Source of the DNA: Roseobacter sp. HKCCD6576-2
Lineage (GTDB): Bacteria; Pseudomonadota; Alphaproteobacteria; Rhodobacterales; Rhodobacteraceae
Reading direction: 5' to 3'
NCBI RefSeq assembly: GCF_013179285.1
Contig: NZ_WVNW01000001.1
Location: forward strand, 558,001 to 622,000
Length of the DNA: 64,000 nucleotides
In this document: positions 1 through 57,934 of the stretch, piece after piece
Numbering within the stretch: the stretch's first letter is position 1
Layout: the number at the start of each line of letters is the position of its first letter
Notes under the pieces: generated by a model
The model's input: only the letters and a program-made list of their open reading frames with translations
Database searches by the model: none
Told to the model about the DNA's origin: nothing
Translations under genes and position numbers: made by a program

Positions 1-60
1 TTCGCCTTTGACAAAGGACAGCGGCGCGCGGGAATAGCTGGGAAGGACCGGGCTGATCAT
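1..60 (-). CDS. argD: Acetylornithine/succinyldiaminopimelate aminotransferase, N-terminus only
   Basis: Only the first 20 codons lie in the window; the gene runs off the left edge. On the minus strand ATG at 60 opens a frame reading MISPVLPSYSR then APLSFVKGE, which matches the start of alphaproteobacterial ArgD, the PLP enzyme that makes N-acetylornithine in arginine synthesis. A GGAG ribosome site lies just before the ATG (about 68-72). The identification rests on this short N-terminus only, and no catalytic residue is visible. Confidence 0.7.
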   Translation of the reverse strand, partial: MISPVLPSYSRAPLSFVKGE

Positions 61-135
61 AACCATCTCCGAGATCGGTGTTGCAAGAAGCCCCGGGCTT
101 GCCCGAAAGGTATCATTAAGTCAATTCAACAGCCG

Positions 136-4286: not shown

Positions 4287-4972
4287 TCGCCGTTCAAAAC
4301 CTGCTGCGCGATCCCGGCGACGAGCAGATAGATTGACGTTATCGCCACGACCAGAGTCAGGGCCGGATTGGAGGCGAACCCCGTCCAAGCGGCCCAGCCG
4401 ATCGCCCCGGTCCAGACCAGGGCCACCGGCAGCGTGATCCATCGCCAGCGTTTGGTGCGCACGGGGTGGACGAATTTCAGCGGCAGGAACATCGCGACGC
4501 TGAGGATGATGACAAGCGCCAGCGTTATCCAAACCCCCGGCGTCATCACCAGGCAGCCCAGGATCAGCATATTCCAGCAGCCCGGGAACCCCGAAAAACT
4601 GTCATCGGCGGTCTTCATCCGGGTGTCGGCGAAGTAGAGCGCGCTGGCAAAGGGTACCAGCAACACGGTCAGCCAGCCGGTCCATCCCGGCAAGAGCCCT
4701 GAGGCGTAGAGCGCATAGGCCGGGATCACCACATAGGTCATGAAATCGATGATCAGGTCCAAGAGCACCCCATCGATTTCGGGCGCGTGGGTCTTGACCT
4801 CAAAATGCCGCGCCAATGGGCCGTCGATGCCGTCGACCACGAAGGCGAGGGCGAGCCAAAGCGCCATGACATCCCATCGCTGCTCCATCGCAGCCAGAAG
4901 GGCGAGCATGGCCAATGCCGCACCGATTGCGGTGAAGCCGTGGACGAAAAAGGCGGAAAGGCGCGCGTTCAT
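4283..4972 (-). CDS. pcs: Phosphatidylcholine synthase
   Basis: An integral membrane CDP-alcohol phosphatidyltransferase that condenses CDP-diacylglycerol with choline to give phosphatidylcholine, a pathway typical of alphaproteobacteria. The CDP-alcohol motif is present in its Pcs form: D47-G, D50-G, A54-R, then G68, D72 and D76. Six or seven hydrophobic segments follow. The ATG at 4972 gives a family-like start (MNARLSAFFVHGFT); a TTG at 5014, nine bases after xerC ends, is an alternative adding 14 residues. Neither has a strong ribosome site. It probably forms a unit with xerC. Confidence 0.9.
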   Translation of the reverse strand: MNARLSAFFVHGFTAIGAALAMLALLAAMEQRWDVMALWLALAFVVDGIDGPLARHFEVKTHAPEIDGVLLDLIIDFMTYVVIPAYALYASGLLPGWTGWLTVLLVPFASALYFADTRMKTADDSFSGFPGCWNMLILGCLVMTPGVWITLALVIILSVAMFLPLKFVHPVRTKRWRWITLPVALVWTGAIGWAAWTGFASNPALTLVVAITSIYLLVAGIAQQVLNGD

Positions 4973-5023
4973 CAAACTGTCATGACCGAAGAGGGCCCTG
5001 GCTTCAATGGGCAAGTTATGGGC

Positions 5024-5947
5024 CTATGCTTTGGGATGGGCGCTTTGATAGACTTCAAGGAGGCGCGCGGTGTCGACGGCGGTATAGGCTTGCGTGGTCG
5101 AGAGCGAGGCATGGCCAAGCAGTTCTTGGATCGCGCGGAGATCGCCGCCCGCGCTCAGCAGATGCGTCGCGAAGCTGTGCCGCATCGCATGCGGCGTGGC
5201 GGTGGCGGGTAGGCCAAGCTGCATCCGCGCCTGTTCCACGGTCTTTTGGATTTGCCGCGGGTTGAGCGCGCCGCCACGGATGCCGCGGAACAGCGGCGTA
5301 TTGGGATCAAGCCGATGCGGGCAGAGGTCGACATACTGCGCCACGGCCGCCCGTGCGGCGGGCAGAACCGGTACCTCGCGCTCCTTGCCGCCTTTGCCGC
5401 GAATGCGCAGCACCTCGCCCAAGGGGAGGGTGCTTGCGGTCAGGCCAAGCGCCTCGGATATCCGCAAGCCGCAGCCATAGAGCAGTGTCACGACAGCCAA
5501 ATCCCGGGCGCTGACCCAATCGGTTTGGTGCTGCATCTCGACCGTGTCGAGCAGGTCGCGGGCCGCCGGGGCGGCCAGAGGGCGGGGCAGGGGCCGTTGG
5601 AACTTCGGCGCGCGGGCGGCCAGCACGGCGGTGGCGTCGAACCCGTCCCGCTCGGCCCACCATCGGAAGAAGCCTTTGACGGCGGAGAGCTTGCGCGCCA
5701 GCGAGCGGGCGCTCACCTCACGGGCGCGCTCATCGGCCATCCAAGCGCGCATGTCGCGGATTGTGAGACCCCGAAGCGGGGCAAGGCCGAGGCTGTCGCC
5801 ATGATAGACGGTTTGGAAGCCCAAAAACCCGGCCACATCACGGCGATAGGCCTCGACTGTGGCATCTGCCGCGCCATCCAATGCGGTGATATGGGCAAGC
5901 CAGTGTTGCAGAAGGTCGCGGGCCGCCGGGCTGAGCGCGAGCGTCAT
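5024..5947 (-). CDS. xerC: Tyrosine recombinase XerC
   Basis: Site-specific recombinase that, with XerD, resolves chromosome dimers at dif. The 307-residue protein has the N-terminal SAM-like core-binding domain (about 10-110) and a catalytic domain with every active residue: R162 (GLRIS), K187, H253 and R256 (HAMRHSFATHL), H279 (LLGHAS) and nucleophile Y288. It is not a phage integrase: no att repeats or phage genes are near, and the upstream DUF484 gene is the usual partner of chromosomal xerC. Four bases separate it from that gene, implying one transcript. Confidence 0.93.
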   Translation of the reverse strand: MTLALSPAARDLLQHWLAHITALDGAADATVEAYRRDVAGFLGFQTVYHGDSLGLAPLRGLTIRDMRAWMADERAREVSARSLARKLSAVKGFFRWWAERDGFDATAVLAARAPKFQRPLPRPLAAPAARDLLDTVEMQHQTDWVSARDLAVVTLLYGCGLRISEALGLTASTLPLGEVLRIRGKGGKEREVPVLPAARAAVAQYVDLCPHRLDPNTPLFRGIRGGALNPRQIQKTVEQARMQLGLPATATPHAMRHSFATHLLSAGGDLRAIQELLGHASLSTTQAYTAVDTARLLEVYQSAHPKA

Positions 5948-5951
5948 GGAC

Positions 5952-6665
5952 TCAGGCCAAGTATTTGCGCATCAACCGCTCAAAAGCACCGTTGAAAAAG
6001 CTCAACAGATCCGTTCCTTGGCTGGGGCGGAACTGATGCGGGTCTTCGGCGCCCATAACCAGCAATCCAGGAAGGCGGCCTTCGCCGAGGTCAAGCCGCA
6101 ACAGCGCTTCGGATTTGATCCAATCGGCCGCCTCGCCATAGATCACATCGGAGCTGTCCCCGACTTGGCGGAGCGTCACCGAGCGCTGCGGCACGTCGCG
6201 ACCGCCGGTCAGATACTGATCGACAAAGCCGGGCGCGACGATGGTCAGCACATCCTCAAGCTTTTGCACTTTCGGCGCAGAGGTCTCGGTCGCTTCGGCG
6301 CTTTCAAGCACCAGGCGGACGCGATCGACCCGCAAAATCCCCGCCACATCGGTGCCGAGGATTTTCAGAAAGCTCTCGAAATCCGGTTGGTCCAGAAGGG
6401 CGATGATTGCGCGATGGATTTGATTGGTGCCCGAGAGGTTCTCATAGGCCGCGGCGATGACGGATCGGTGGGTATCCTCCAACCGATCCAGCCGATTTTC
6501 CAACCGTTCCATGGCGATGCCACGCATATCGACGATATTGCCGCCCATCTGCCGGTCATTCGCCGCAATCAGCGCCCGCATCAGGTCACGGTCTTCGAGA
6601 ATAAGCTCCGGGTCACTCAAGACCCGTTCCCGCCAATCGTCCAACATGTCTGCTCTTTCGCCCAT
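5952..6665 (-). CDS. DUF484 family protein
   Basis: A 237-residue protein of the DUF484 family, GAF-like proteins of unknown function that are widely encoded just upstream of xerC. The N-terminal 20-90 region is helical and charged (WRERVLSDPELILED, RLENRLDRLED), and the rest fits a GAF-type fold. No signal peptide. The stop lies four bases before xerC. A link to chromosome-dimer resolution is suggested only by conserved neighbourhood. Confidence 0.85.
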   Translation of the reverse strand: MGERADMLDDWRERVLSDPELILEDRDLMRALIAANDRQMGGNIVDMRGIAMERLENRLDRLEDTHRSVIAAAYENLSGTNQIHRAIIALLDQPDFESFLKILGTDVAGILRVDRVRLVLESAEATETSAPKVQKLEDVLTIVAPGFVDQYLTGGRDVPQRSVTLRQVGDSSDVIYGEAADWIKSEALLRLDLGEGRLPGLLVMGAEDPHQFRPSQGTDLLSFFNGAFERLMRKYLA

Positions 6666-30340: not shown

Positions 30341-30378
30341 ACCCGCCTGCGCTTGGGCGTAAGCCGGGCCGATCAAAG

Positions 30379-30424
30379 CTCCACAACGGCTTCCTGGCGT
30401 GGAGAGAAAACACCAATGGAGCAT
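30379..30424 (+). promoter_or_regulatory. SAM/SAH riboswitch controlling metK
   Basis: The stem CTCCAC (30379-30384)/GTGGAG (30399-30404) encloses the conserved AACGGCTTCCTGGC loop, and CCAATGGAGCA (30413-30423) supplies the pseudoknot strand that contains the GGAG ribosome site. This matches the SAM/SAH aptamer described upstream of metK in Rhodobacterales. Binding of S-adenosylmethionine hides the Shine-Dalgarno, so translation of SAM synthetase falls when SAM is plentiful. Confidence 0.93.
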
Positions 30425-36327: not shown

Positions 36328-38013
36328 ATGTGCGCTAAAGCAACCATGGAGGAATTCGAAGCCCTCCTGAACGAAAGCTTCGAAATTGACACGCCCGAAG
36401 AGGGCTCCGTTGTCAAAGGTAAGGTTATCGCCATCGAGGCGGGCCAAGCCATCATCGACGTCGGCTACAAAATGGAAGGCCGTGTCGAGCTGAAAGAATT
36501 CGCAAATCCTGGCGAAGCCCCCGAGATCGCGGTTGGCGACGAAGTGGAGGTCTACCTCCGCAATGTCGAAAACGCCCGCGGTGAGGCGGTTCTGTCCCAT
36601 GAAATGGCCCGTCGTGAGGCCGCTTGGGATCGTCTGGAGAAGGCCTATGCCGATGAGAACCGCGTCGAAGGCGCGATCTTTGGCCGGGTCAAAGGCGGCT
36701 TCACGGTCGATCTGGGTGGCGCAGTTGCGTTCTTGCCTGGCAGCCAGGTCGATGTCCGCCCCGTGCGCGACGCTGGCCCTCTGATGGGTCTGAAACAGCC
36801 GTTCCAAATCCTGAAAATGGACCGTCGCCGTGGCAATATCGTGGTATCGCGTCGGGCGATCCTCGAAGAGTCCCGCGCCGAGCAGCGCGCCGAGGTTATC
36901 GGCAAGCTGGCCGAAGGCGATGTGGTCGACGGTGTGGTCAAAAACATCACCGAATACGGGGCCTTTGTGGATCTCGGCGGTGTCGACGGCCTGTTGCACG
37001 TCACCGACATGGCCTGGCGTCGTGTGAACGACCCGAAAGAGGTTCTGACCATTGGCGAGACCGTCAAGGTGCAGGTCATCAAGGTCAACAAAGAGACCCA
37101 CCGTATCAGCCTCGGCATGAAGCAGCTGCAGGACGATCCGTGGGATTCGGTCGAGACCAAGTACCCGCTCGATTCGACCCATACCGGTCGCGTCACCAAC
37201 ATCACCGATTACGGTGCGTTTGTTGAGCTTGAGCCAGGTGTTGAGGGTCTCGTGCACGTCTCCGAGATGTCCTGGACCAAGAAGAACGTGCATCCGGGCA
37301 AGATTGTCTCCACCTCGCAGGAAGTGGAAGTCATGGTGCTCGAGATCGACACCACCAAACGCCGCGTCTCGCTTGGCCTCAAACAGACCATGCGCAACCC
37401 GTGGGAAGTGTTCGAAGAGCAGTATCCGGTCGGCACGCAGGTCGAGGGCGAGGTCAAGAACATCACCGAATTCGGTCTGTTCGTGGGGCTCGACAACGAC
37501 ATCGACGGCATGGTCCACCTCTCCGATCTGACCTGGGAAGGTCGCGGCGAAGATGTGATCGGCAACTACCGTAAAGGCGATGTGGTTCAAGCGGTTGTCT
37601 CGGAAGTCGACACCGACAAAGAGCGTATCAGCCTGTCGATCAAAGCCGTTGAAGGCGACCCGTTCGCCGAGGTTGTCGATGGCGTCAAGCGCGGCTCGGT
37701 TGTGACCGTGGCCGTGACCGCGATCGAAGATGGTGGGATCGAAGTGGAATATGAGGGCATGAAATCCTTCATCCGCCGCTCCGACCTCTCCCGTGATCGC
37801 GCCGAACAGCGCCCTGAGCGCTTCCAGATCGGTGATAAGGTCGATGCCCGCGTGACCAACGTGGATGCGAAGACCCGCCGTTTGGGTCTGTCGATCAAAG
37901 CCCGTGAGATCGCCGAAGAGAAAGAAGCGGTTGAGCAGTATGGCTCCTCCGACTCCGGCGCATCGCTTGGCGACATTCTTGGCGCGGCGCTGAAAGGCGA
38001 CGACGACAAGTAA
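36328..38013 (+). CDS. rpsA: 30S ribosomal protein S1
   Basis: 561 residues with six S1 (OB-fold) repeats at roughly 25-91, 107-175, 194-262, 279-349, 366-436 and 453-520; repeats 3-6 are the most regular (GAFVDLGGVDGLLHV, GAFVELEPGVEGLVHV, GLFVGLDNDIDGMVHL). It binds mRNA at the ribosome's platform and helps recruit leaders with poor Shine-Dalgarno sequences. The start MCAKATMEEFEALL is typical of Rhodobacterales. Codon use is strongly biased, as expected for high expression. It has its own leader and a strong terminator. Confidence 0.97.
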   Translation: MCAKATMEEFEALLNESFEIDTPEEGSVVKGKVIAIEAGQAIIDVGYKMEGRVELKEFANPGEAPEIAVGDEVEVYLRNVENARGEAVLSHEMARREAAWDRLEKAYADENRVEGAIFGRVKGGFTVDLGGAVAFLPGSQVDVRPVRDAGPLMGLKQPFQILKMDRRRGNIVVSRRAILEESRAEQRAEVIGKLAEGDVVDGVVKNITEYGAFVDLGGVDGLLHVTDMAWRRVNDPKEVLTIGETVKVQVIKVNKETHRISLGMKQLQDDPWDSVETKYPLDSTHTGRVTNITDYGAFVELEPGVEGLVHVSEMSWTKKNVHPGKIVSTSQEVEVMVLEIDTTKRRVSLGLKQTMRNPWEVFEEQYPVGTQVEGEVKNITEFGLFVGLDNDIDGMVHLSDLTWEGRGEDVIGNYRKGDVVQAVVSEVDTDKERISLSIKAVEGDPFAEVVDGVKRGSVVTVAVTAIEDGGIEVEYEGMKSFIRRSDLSRDRAEQRPERFQIGDKVDARVTNVDAKTRRLGLSIKAREIAEEKEAVEQYGSSDSGASLGDILGAALKGDDDK

Positions 38014-38037
38014 GGCCAGTCGGCTTAGGAAAACAGA

Positions 38038-38067
38038 AGGCCCCGCTGAGCAGCGGGGCCTTTTTTA
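38038..38067 (+). terminator. Intrinsic terminator of rpsA
   Basis: AGGCCCCGCTG (38038-38048) pairs with CAGCGGGGCCT (38051-38061) around AG, then TTTTT. A textbook rho-independent terminator 25 bases after the rpsA stop. Confidence 0.95.
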
Positions 38068-38266
38068 TGACCCGGCGTTCACCCTATAGATCAGCTTGGC
38101 AACCTAACGAAGCGTTCGAAACTGCCTTTGCGGTCGTCCTGGGCAGAGGTCACGTGCCAGATGACGAAGCCAGATGGTCTCTGATCGGTCGTTTCCATGC
38201 CGCGCGACAGTATGGCCGGCGGTGGCCGACGTCAGGTGTGGGTCAGAGGCCACGCATCCTTTGGCA
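38068..38266. other. Non-coding stretch between rpsA terminator and orphan gene
   Basis: About 200 bases with no gene I can support. A 68-codon plus-strand frame (38067-38273) starts inside the rpsA terminator, has no ribosome site and resembles nothing I know. The stretch is the 3' side of the minus-strand gene at 38267-38569; I see no clear terminator for that gene. Confidence 0.5.
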
Positions 38267-38569
38267 TCATTGAACCTGCCGCCGCGCTTTCGACCCGCCG
38301 CGGCGATGGGGTCTCGGAAGGCAGAGGTTCAACGGTTCCGGCGGCATGCGCCGTGCTGCAAGCAGCAATGCGCAAAACACGCCAATCGCGGGCGATACCC
38401 GCTGAAATGGCAAGGCGCGCGCATAGGCCGCCCGTGCCTGGCGGTCGAAGTCGCTATCGCCGGGCAGGGACCCGAGCCATTCCATAAAACCGAGTTGGCC
38501 AAGCTCAACGGCTCGAAGTTGGTCGGCAGGGTGAGTTTGAAGTCTGTTCAAAACATGATTGAGTACCAT
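38267..38569 (-). CDS. Cobalamin-riboswitch-controlled small protein, unknown function
   Basis: 100 residues, read leftward from ATG 38569 with an excellent ribosome site (GGAGG five bases upstream). The first 65 residues look like a real soluble helical protein (LNRLQTHPADQLRAVELGQ, LGFMEWLGSLPGD, ARAAYARALPFQ); the tail is Pro/Arg-rich. It is the only gene of note downstream of the cobalamin riboswitch at 38688-38877. No cobalamin synthesis or transport gene is nearby. I do not recognise the family. Confidence 0.6.
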   Translation of the reverse strand: MVLNHVLNRLQTHPADQLRAVELGQLGFMEWLGSLPGDSDFDRQARAAYARALPFQRVSPAIGVFCALLLAARRMPPEPLNLCLPRPHRRGGSKARRQVQ

Positions 38570-38639
38570 AGCGCCCTCCGCGCAGGGGGCGGGTCTGACG
38601 CAGGCAATCTGAAATGTCTCGGCGGGGCCGGTCCGTCAT
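38505..38639 (-). CDS. Possible 44-residue leader ORF after the cobalamin riboswitch
   Basis: ATG at 38639 stands seven bases after AAGGAG and opens a 44-codon frame (MTDRPRRDISDCLRQ...) that runs 65 bases into the start of the 100-residue gene in another frame. The peptide is Arg-rich and not obviously protein-like. It could be a leader peptide through which the riboswitch acts on translation of the overlapping gene, or chance. Confidence 0.3.
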   Translation of the reverse strand: MTDRPRRDISDCLRQTRPLRGGRYGTQSCFEQTSNSPCRPTSSR

Positions 38640-38687
38640 CACAATGCTCCTTGCCAGGCACCCCGCCCGGGGTTGAGTTGAAGTGCG

Positions 38688-38877
38688 ATGGCAGGTCTCC
38701 TGACTTGCGGGTCTTGGCCGGTTCCGAACCTTCCCGGACCCTATGCCCAGTGGTGTTCCTCGGATCGGCTCACCGCCTACAGTTGCGGGGGCAGTTGCGG
38801 CATTGGCTGGCGTGTACCAGTCGCACCGCATTCCCTTTAAATCCCGCCGCCGAAACGGTCTGGGAACCATCGCCTCA
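38688..38877 (-). promoter_or_regulatory. Cobalamin (adenosylcobalamin) riboswitch
   Basis: Read on the minus strand, the region shows the class landmarks in order: GGGATTTAAAGGGAAT and GGTG near 38825-38845, GCAACTGCCCCCGCAACTGT with GGCGGTGAG near 38770-38797, the B12-box core CACCACTGGG near 38745-38755, GGGAAGG near 38730, and the closing GAGACCTGCC near 38690-38699. It controls the small gene beginning at 38569, about 118 bases downstream. A high-confidence aptamer, though its target is unusual. Confidence 0.93.
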
Positions 38878-38955
38878 ATCGGTAAAGAGACCGGGGGCTA
38901 GATGTCAATTGCTGATTGACGAAACGGGGTCGTCGGCGCGGCGACGGCTTTGACC

Positions 38956-39666
38956 TTAGTCGCGCGGACCGTCACCCATGGCCGCGGCCACCATGTGACT
39001 GGCACCCGATAGCTGCCCAAGCGGCAGTGGGTCGTTGCCCCGCGCGCGGCGGCGATCGGCCACAATCTGACCTCTGGTGAGCGCGATCCGGCTCACATCT
39101 GCGGCGTCTTCTGGTTGCATGACATAGACGCCGTCGATATCGGCCAAGATTGCATCACCCGGCAGCACGGCCGTGCCGCCAACGGAAACCGGCACATGCG
39201 CCCGCCCGCCGAGATTGGCCATCCGCGTTGTCATTGGCGAGACGCCGCGACACCAGACAGGGAACCCCAGTTCGGCCAGTTCCACGCTGTCGGTGCAGGG
39301 ACCATCGATGATGGCGGCCGCAATCCCTTGCCGCATTGCCGCCGCCGCAACACCGTCGCCGAGGCAGGCATGGCGTTGGTCGCCAAGCCGGTCGATCACC
39401 AGGATATCCCCAGGGGCGGCCAAACCGATGGCATGGTGCAGCATAACCGAACACGGCCCCGGGATTTGGACGGTCAGGGCTCGCCCGGCAATGCGCGGGC
39501 CAAAGCCCTGATTGGCGCGAATGCCTGGGTCGAGCGCTCCCCAATAAAGAATATGCCCCAGCATCGTTGTCTCGCATTGCTGAAGGGTCTCCACCGTGGC
39601 CGGGTCGAGGGCCGGTGGTTCGGGCCCGATCATGTATTTGGCTGGCGAGGGAAGGGGGCTGTTCAT
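38956..39666 (-). CDS. RraA-like protein / HMG aldolase family
   Basis: 236 residues of the RraA/4-hydroxy-4-methyl-2-oxoglutarate aldolase fold. The glycine-rich PGDILVIDRLGD (85-96) and the metal-site GD at 103-104 (LGDGVAAAA) are conserved. In aldolases an Arg-Asp pair follows about 20 residues later; here the site reads DGPCTD (121-126), so the Arg is missing and activity may differ. It is the last gene of a six-gene operon with a peptide-type ABC importer (four-base overlap), which suggests it acts on the imported compound. Confidence 0.85.
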   Translation of the reverse strand: MNSPLPSPAKYMIGPEPPALDPATVETLQQCETTMLGHILYWGALDPGIRANQGFGPRIAGRALTVQIPGPCSVMLHHAIGLAAPGDILVIDRLGDQRHACLGDGVAAAAMRQGIAAAIIDGPCTDSVELAELGFPVWCRGVSPMTTRMANLGGRAHVPVSVGGTAVLPGDAILADIDGVYVMQPEDAADVSRIALTRGQIVADRRRARGNDPLPLGQLSGASHMVAAAMGDGPRD

Positions 39667-57804: not shown

Positions 57805-57934
57805 GGATCGAATGCACCAAGGCCCCCGTGGGCGAAACCTCGCTGACGGGGGGCGATCCTGAAACACCCAGGACCGGAGCGTTGATGCGTCCGGATATGT
57901 TGGGTGGGCGTTTACGCGCGCGCGGTAGGTGGAG

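Follow-up and report, generated by a model that had tools for sequence, protein, structure and literature searches.

The window analysed here is a 64,000-nt stretch of Roseobacter sp. HKCCD6576-2 (contig NZ_WVNW01000001.1, positions 558,001 to 622,000), in which a cobalamin riboswitch precedes a gene for a small protein. The features of this locus are the following:

38673..38886, minus strand: cobalamin riboswitch aptamer (RF00174), full length (cmscan 125.4 bits, E 4.6e-31, model positions 1-189 of 189)
38651..38672, minus strand: hairpin with the GGGCGGGG stretch, P13/L13-like (consensus stem; GGCGGGG invariant in 30 aligned leaders)
38505..38639, minus strand: possible upstream ORF of 44 codons that begins behind AAGGAG and runs out of frame into the small gene
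38571..38583, minus strand: GCGC-GGAGG-GCGC, a 4-bp hairpin whose loop holds the ribosome-binding site (nearly invariant, 30 of 38 extracted leaders)
38267..38569, minus strand: small-protein gene, an intact ORF of 100 codons starting with ATG
38037..38062, minus strand: terminator-like hairpin past the small gene (consensus scan, 1 found versus 1.0 expected in shuffles)

The Infernal match covers all 189 model positions at a score well above the curated gathering score of 31.5 bits, and it encloses the complete minus-strand aptamer that a first-pass annotation had placed at 38688-38877. The small gene starts 103 nt past the aptamer end and is preceded on the minus strand by GCGCGGAGGGCGC, whose GGAGG lies just 5' of the start codon, in agreement with the 100-residue ORF and ribosome site described earlier. 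We take the hairpin at 38651-38672 to be P13/L13-like, with the CCCCGC loop of the aptamer as its putative pairing partner. A search of window positions 37950-39050 found no sigma-70-like promoter.

The next gene downstream (36328-38013, plus strand), which encodes six S1 RNA-binding stretches, is convergent with the small gene, as fits the earlier description of a lone gene. The terminator-like hairpin sits between the two and is a weak candidate, since the scan found no more hairpins than the shuffles predicted. Upstream on the same strand lie genes for an RraA-like protein and a peptide-type ABC transporter. No cobalamin gene was found among these window neighbours, and the claim that none is within reach therefore stood for the neighbours examined; it failed in some relatives, which carry a BtuF-like or MetH gene directly after the small gene or gbcAB near it.

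The genome itself holds seven cobalamin riboswitches. As judged by eye, the six besides the window copy front transport, CobN/CobW-like and similar genes, which makes the window riboswitch the odd one out. At one genomic site (C56:47392-47616), a cobalamin riboswitch precedes a short ATPase ORF similar to the PF01297-type ABC runs described below. According to PMC3766115, the regulons of this riboswitch class cover the synthesis of B12, the transport of B12 and of cobalt, and isozymes that correspond to B12-dependent enzymes. The complete, above-threshold window aptamer and the settings of its sister copies resemble such regulons; the gene that it controls differs in lying outside every named protein family found, so that, as far as tested, it belongs to none of the classes given there.

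When searched against Pfam and NCBIfam, the window protein matched 0 families at E 1, and a search with 41 aligned members gave no good match either (best E 0.075). The HMM search proposed in the first-pass annotation thus led to a gene of an unnamed family. Within the window's bacterial family, a 6-row profile matched 42 of 394 genomes, one of which was later dropped, and a 41-row profile matched 47 of 394. A class-wide profile search matched only 4 of 332 genomes, the window's own counted, and the family is therefore mainly of Rhodobacteraceae type. The sources of the 48 member loci taken from genome contig records include Rhodosalinus, Shimia, Marivita, Roseovarius, Roseicyclus, Oricola and Hoeflea, and a protein search added three Cereibacter plasmids. 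Two sequence groups, A and B, can be told apart by eye; the window protein falls in group A, and group B loci are often flanked by a gene for a UvrD-like helicase on one side and by mraZ-like genes on the other.

A short ORF of this kind could belong to a long leader, or be what is left of a decaying gene, rather than encode a functional protein, and the three Cereibacter plasmid records, which annotate it as hypothetical (two) or not at all (one), might be read in that way. However, the median dN/dS among 13 Marivita-like loci was 0.066 (74 of 78 pairs with finite dS), and the frame is open in 41 aligned members, with W31, A45, A48 and the tail conserved. The AlphaFold2 model was also confident (pLDDT 85.7), showing four helices followed by a basic RRGGxxRR tail that is nearly invariant in the alignment and is the least confident part of the model. 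A non-functional ORF is thus scarcely credible: the family is coding and under purifying selection, and the small protein represents a real protein family. A fold comparison, in which only 102 chains were aligned, returned no convincing known fold for the model, and inspection by eye revealed no hydrophobic segment or signal peptide.

The family is tightly coupled to cobalamin riboswitches. A same-strand RF00174 match lay 38-328 nt upstream in 38 of 43 whole-genome loci; among the other five, the genes of G311 and G386 are 2.4-2.9 kb behind a riboswitch, and none is listed for G297, G322 and G326, the last of which was later discarded as spurious. The riboswitch core motif occurred within 600 nt upstream in 46 of the 48 contig-record loci, the exceptions being L113, which lies at a contig end, and L094, in which the small gene closes an ABC-transporter run headed by a riboswitch. 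Over 82 distinct members, the motif was present at this distance in 76, versus 28 of 956 other ORFs of the same loci, and three further members terminate riboswitch-led gene runs. Rfam confirmed the upstream riboswitch in all six motif loci checked (L098, L108, L116, L121, L126 and L134), and the motif was also seen in both of the Cereibacter records opened. At the margins of the family, the weak in-family match of G391 has a riboswitch 83 nt upstream, four others fetched (G046, G105, G179 and G111) have none, and a weak match outside the bacterial family (G695/L155, E 1.7e-4) starts 38 nt past an RF00174 match. No riboswitch was found in the 3.3-kb locus of a good match outside the family (G721/L153, E 2.4e-21) or in the locus of the weak distant match L154.

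The first-pass annotation had proposed a B12-linked job for the small protein, to be given up if the ORF was not conserved next to cobalamin riboswitches in related genomes. The linkage in 38 of 43 and 46 of 48 loci contradicts such a lack of conservation and lends support to the proposal. Because the pairing recurs in dozens of related bacteria, the small protein very probably serves the response to B12 scarcity. In this class, riboswitches usually turn expression off with B12; by the same polarity, plentiful cobalamin would bind the leader RNA and keep small-gene expression low, and the small protein would be made when cobalamin runs short.

The leader between aptamer and start codon is itself conserved. 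We aligned 30 of 38 extracted group A leaders, all of which share the GGGCGGGG hairpin, with a stem of mostly G-C and G-U pairs in the fold of the alignment. The same 30 leaders carry GCGC-GGAGG-GCGC directly 5' of the start codon, which puts the ribosome-binding site into a loop closed by four base pairs. Both stems are backed by sequence conservation rather than covariation, and the leader without its aptamer folds no better than shuffles (z 1.04). At least one of the eight unaligned leaders (L057) breaks the GCGC-GGAGG-GCGC motif, which is also absent from group A loci such as L046, L052, L064, L073, L094 and L108. A search for this motif followed by ATG covered 24 member genomes, mostly chosen from those already seen with the motif, and picked out the small gene's own leader in 23 of them; it also gave matches in 4 of 24 non-member genomes. 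Of 66 leaders, 48 have an SD-like site with a start codon in the stretch that separates the hairpin from the gene. Since the frame of this upstream ORF relative to the small gene varies (25/17/6 among the 48), a conserved leader peptide is not supported; translational coupling of the upstream ORF to the small gene is possible. One locus, L144 in genome G036, is a leader swap, in which the family's riboswitch (618-831) and GCGCGGAGGGCGC leader drive a different ORF of 139 aa (916-1335); this ORF has no Pfam match, and the small protein was not found in that genome.

In 64 of 82 loci, the window's included, the next gene is neither BtuF-like nor a homocysteine methyltransferase or MetH gene. In 12 of 82 (L047, L049, L052, L060, L063, L098, L105, L112, L134, L136, L138 and L140), the next same-strand gene encodes a BtuF-like PF01497 protein, confirmed by hmmscan in all 12, and, of the 10 loci in which the junction was measured, 6 have its start overlapping the small-gene stop by 1-4 nt. 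These neighbours differ from BtuF in that they begin without an evident signal peptide, as judged by eye, and in that the L047 protein scores 54.7 bits against an equivalog cut-off of 234; the small protein itself is not BtuF-like. Furthermore, MetH or a homocysteine methyltransferase (PF02574) follows within 250 nt in 6 of 82 loci, with MetH as two genes in L053, L069, L070 and L108 (the second gene of L108 by similarity); L059 and L116 have a single PF02574 gene in this place. In L116 (Vannielia), an SAH riboswitch (RF01057, 41.1 bits) spans 4955-5030, just before the homocysteine methyltransferase gene at 5053-6102. The Roseicyclus locus L134 carries at its edge a match to the pyrrolysine insertion element family PYLIS_3 (RF02510, 49.4 bits; 7-106, plus strand).

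A tree of 81 members, itself poorly resolved, implied no fewer than 8 changes for the BtuF neighbour and 4 for the Met neighbour, so that both pairings seem to have come or gone several times; when the BtuF and Met labels were compared with each other alone, they showed no clear clustering on that tree. One Cereibacter plasmid carries a pair of cobyric acid synthase genes some 1.6 kb from the small gene, in divergent orientation and with a hypothetical gene between, and a second record is alike.

Another kind of neighbourhood bears on uptake, for which the small protein could be an accessory part, acting on B12 or cobalt alongside BtuBCDF or AztABC-like transporters. In L064 (G386) and L094, the small gene is the last of a riboswitch-led ABC transporter run with a PF01297 (ZnuA) binding protein, possibly a cobalt importer, and most other cobalamin riboswitches of the window's genome seem to drive transport genes. 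Yet, as judged by eye, the small protein has no hydrophobic stretch or export signal, and its commonest partner, the BtuF-like protein, also starts without an evident one; we regard a part in uptake as improbable.

Co-occurrence was compared between 41 strong holders (E 1.1e-14 or better) and 39 non-matching genomes, which were picked by the order of their handles rather than at random; the tests ignore kinship and are uncorrected for number, and the non-holders may hide divergent members. A BtuF ortholog was present in 18 of 41 holders versus 4 of 39 non-holders (Fisher p 0.001) and absent at E 1e-30 in the other 23 holders. In the window's own genome, the PF01497 protein at C1:15684-16508 (L091 10685-11509) belongs to a riboswitch-led BtuB/F/C/D-like run; it also has no evident signal peptide, and its orthologs occur in 22 of 80 genomes. 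CobJ passed its cut-off about equally often in both sets (26/41 versus 23/39, p 0.82), which makes a role in corrinoid synthesis look less likely. The MetH activation domain (PF02965), scored over all 394 genomes, was found in 11 of 41 versus 56 of 353 (p 0.08) and was not found in the window's genome, so that it is no clear partner of the small protein. Holders also carry more cobalamin riboswitches (159 in 41 versus 77 in 39, or about 3.9 versus 2.0 per genome, added by hand), and co-occurrence may therefore reflect a larger B12 regulon or kinship.

Both MetH and the split MtgC/D/E methionine synthase of roseobacters need cobalamin (PMC5764234, PMC12478193). According to these two papers, marine roseobacters such as Phaeobacter inhibens and Ruegeria pomeroyi have no classical MetH and use the split cobalamin-dependent system instead, which in R. 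pomeroyi also demethylates glycine betaine. The small gene touches this pathway through the MetH and methyltransferase genes that follow it, but the protein occurs both with and without the MetH activation domain and has no detectable cap-domain similarity. A profile comparison with the four-helix MetH cap (PF02607), represented by five cap domains that closely resemble one another, showed no likeness: hhalign gave a probability of 0.2% over 1 aligned column.

Our first choice of mechanism, held tentatively, is that the small protein delivers scarce cobalamin to methyltransferases, because of its repeated pairing with a seemingly cytosolic PF01497 protein and with methionine synthesis, together with the lack of a tie to B12 synthesis. 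It would act as a cytosolic helical adaptor, working with the BtuF-like cobalamin-binding protein that has no evident signal peptide, and the pair would hold scarce cobalamin and hand it to the B12-dependent methyltransferases, MetH or split MtgC/D/E; the basic tail would be a docking or nucleic-acid-facing end. Animals have B12 trafficking chaperones, of which such a delivery system would be the bacterial counterpart in function. That this undescribed family and the cytosolic BtuF-like protein together form a shortage-only route of cobalamin to methionine synthase and the betaine methyltransferases is a further and more doubtful step.

The main rival to delivery is a regulator of a B12-sparing response, whose basic tail would bind RNA, DNA or the ribosome and which would turn down B12-consuming enzymes or raise those that do without B12, for example the glycine betaine monooxygenase GbcAB. 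GbcA is indeed commoner in holders (14/41 versus 4/39, p 0.015), and a cobalamin riboswitch lies directly before the gbcA-like gene in at least 9 of the 14 holders with GbcA and in 1 of the 4 non-holders with GbcA (genomes G311, G344, G058, G123, G137, G314, G386, G259, G235 and G031), at a distance of 107-138 nt, with all gbcA matches below the NCBIfam cut-off. Genes resembling gbcAB also lie near the small gene, on either strand, in eight loci (including two copies of a single one; L050 backed by hmmscan), and G311 has the run riboswitch-gbcA-gbcB-small gene. Here GbcAB may take the place of the cobalamin-dependent betaine demethylase without itself needing B12. The near-invariance of the tail, though it is modelled with least confidence, and the frequent solitude of the small gene, as is common for regulators, would also suit this role. 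On the other hand, no nucleic-acid-binding fold was recognised among the 102 chains aligned, and the leader hairpin followed by ATG occurs outside the small gene's own leader in 4 of 24 member genomes versus 4 of 24 non-members, so that no shared RNA target site stands out. Moreover, the BtuF-like and MetH neighbours point to cofactor handling, and we consider a regulator possible, though somewhat less likely than delivery.

Rhodobacteraceae and their relatives are important marine suppliers and users of vitamin B12. A family tied this closely to cobalamin riboswitches and with no known B12 role points to a gap in the picture of bacterial responses to B12 shortage, and riboswitch-led gbcAB in several holder genomes would connect B12 supply to betaine use. 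A full-text literature search did not turn up the small protein among the matches listed, and none of the best 10 of 33 papers matched joined glycine betaine, gbcA and a cobalamin riboswitch. By analogy only, the family may be set beside FbpA/B/C of Bacillus, small proteins of metal-sparing responses that are likewise small, basic and made under nutrient shortage, but that answer to another signal in other taxa. Being small and present in named Shimia, Marivita, Roseovarius and Cereibacter strains, the protein lends itself to direct tests of its role. Elsewhere in the window, Rfam matches include a SAM/SAH riboswitch (RF01727, 55.2 bits) at 30375-30423 on the plus strand and an ffh RNA motif (RF01793, 59.8 bits) at 57815-57867 on the minus strand.
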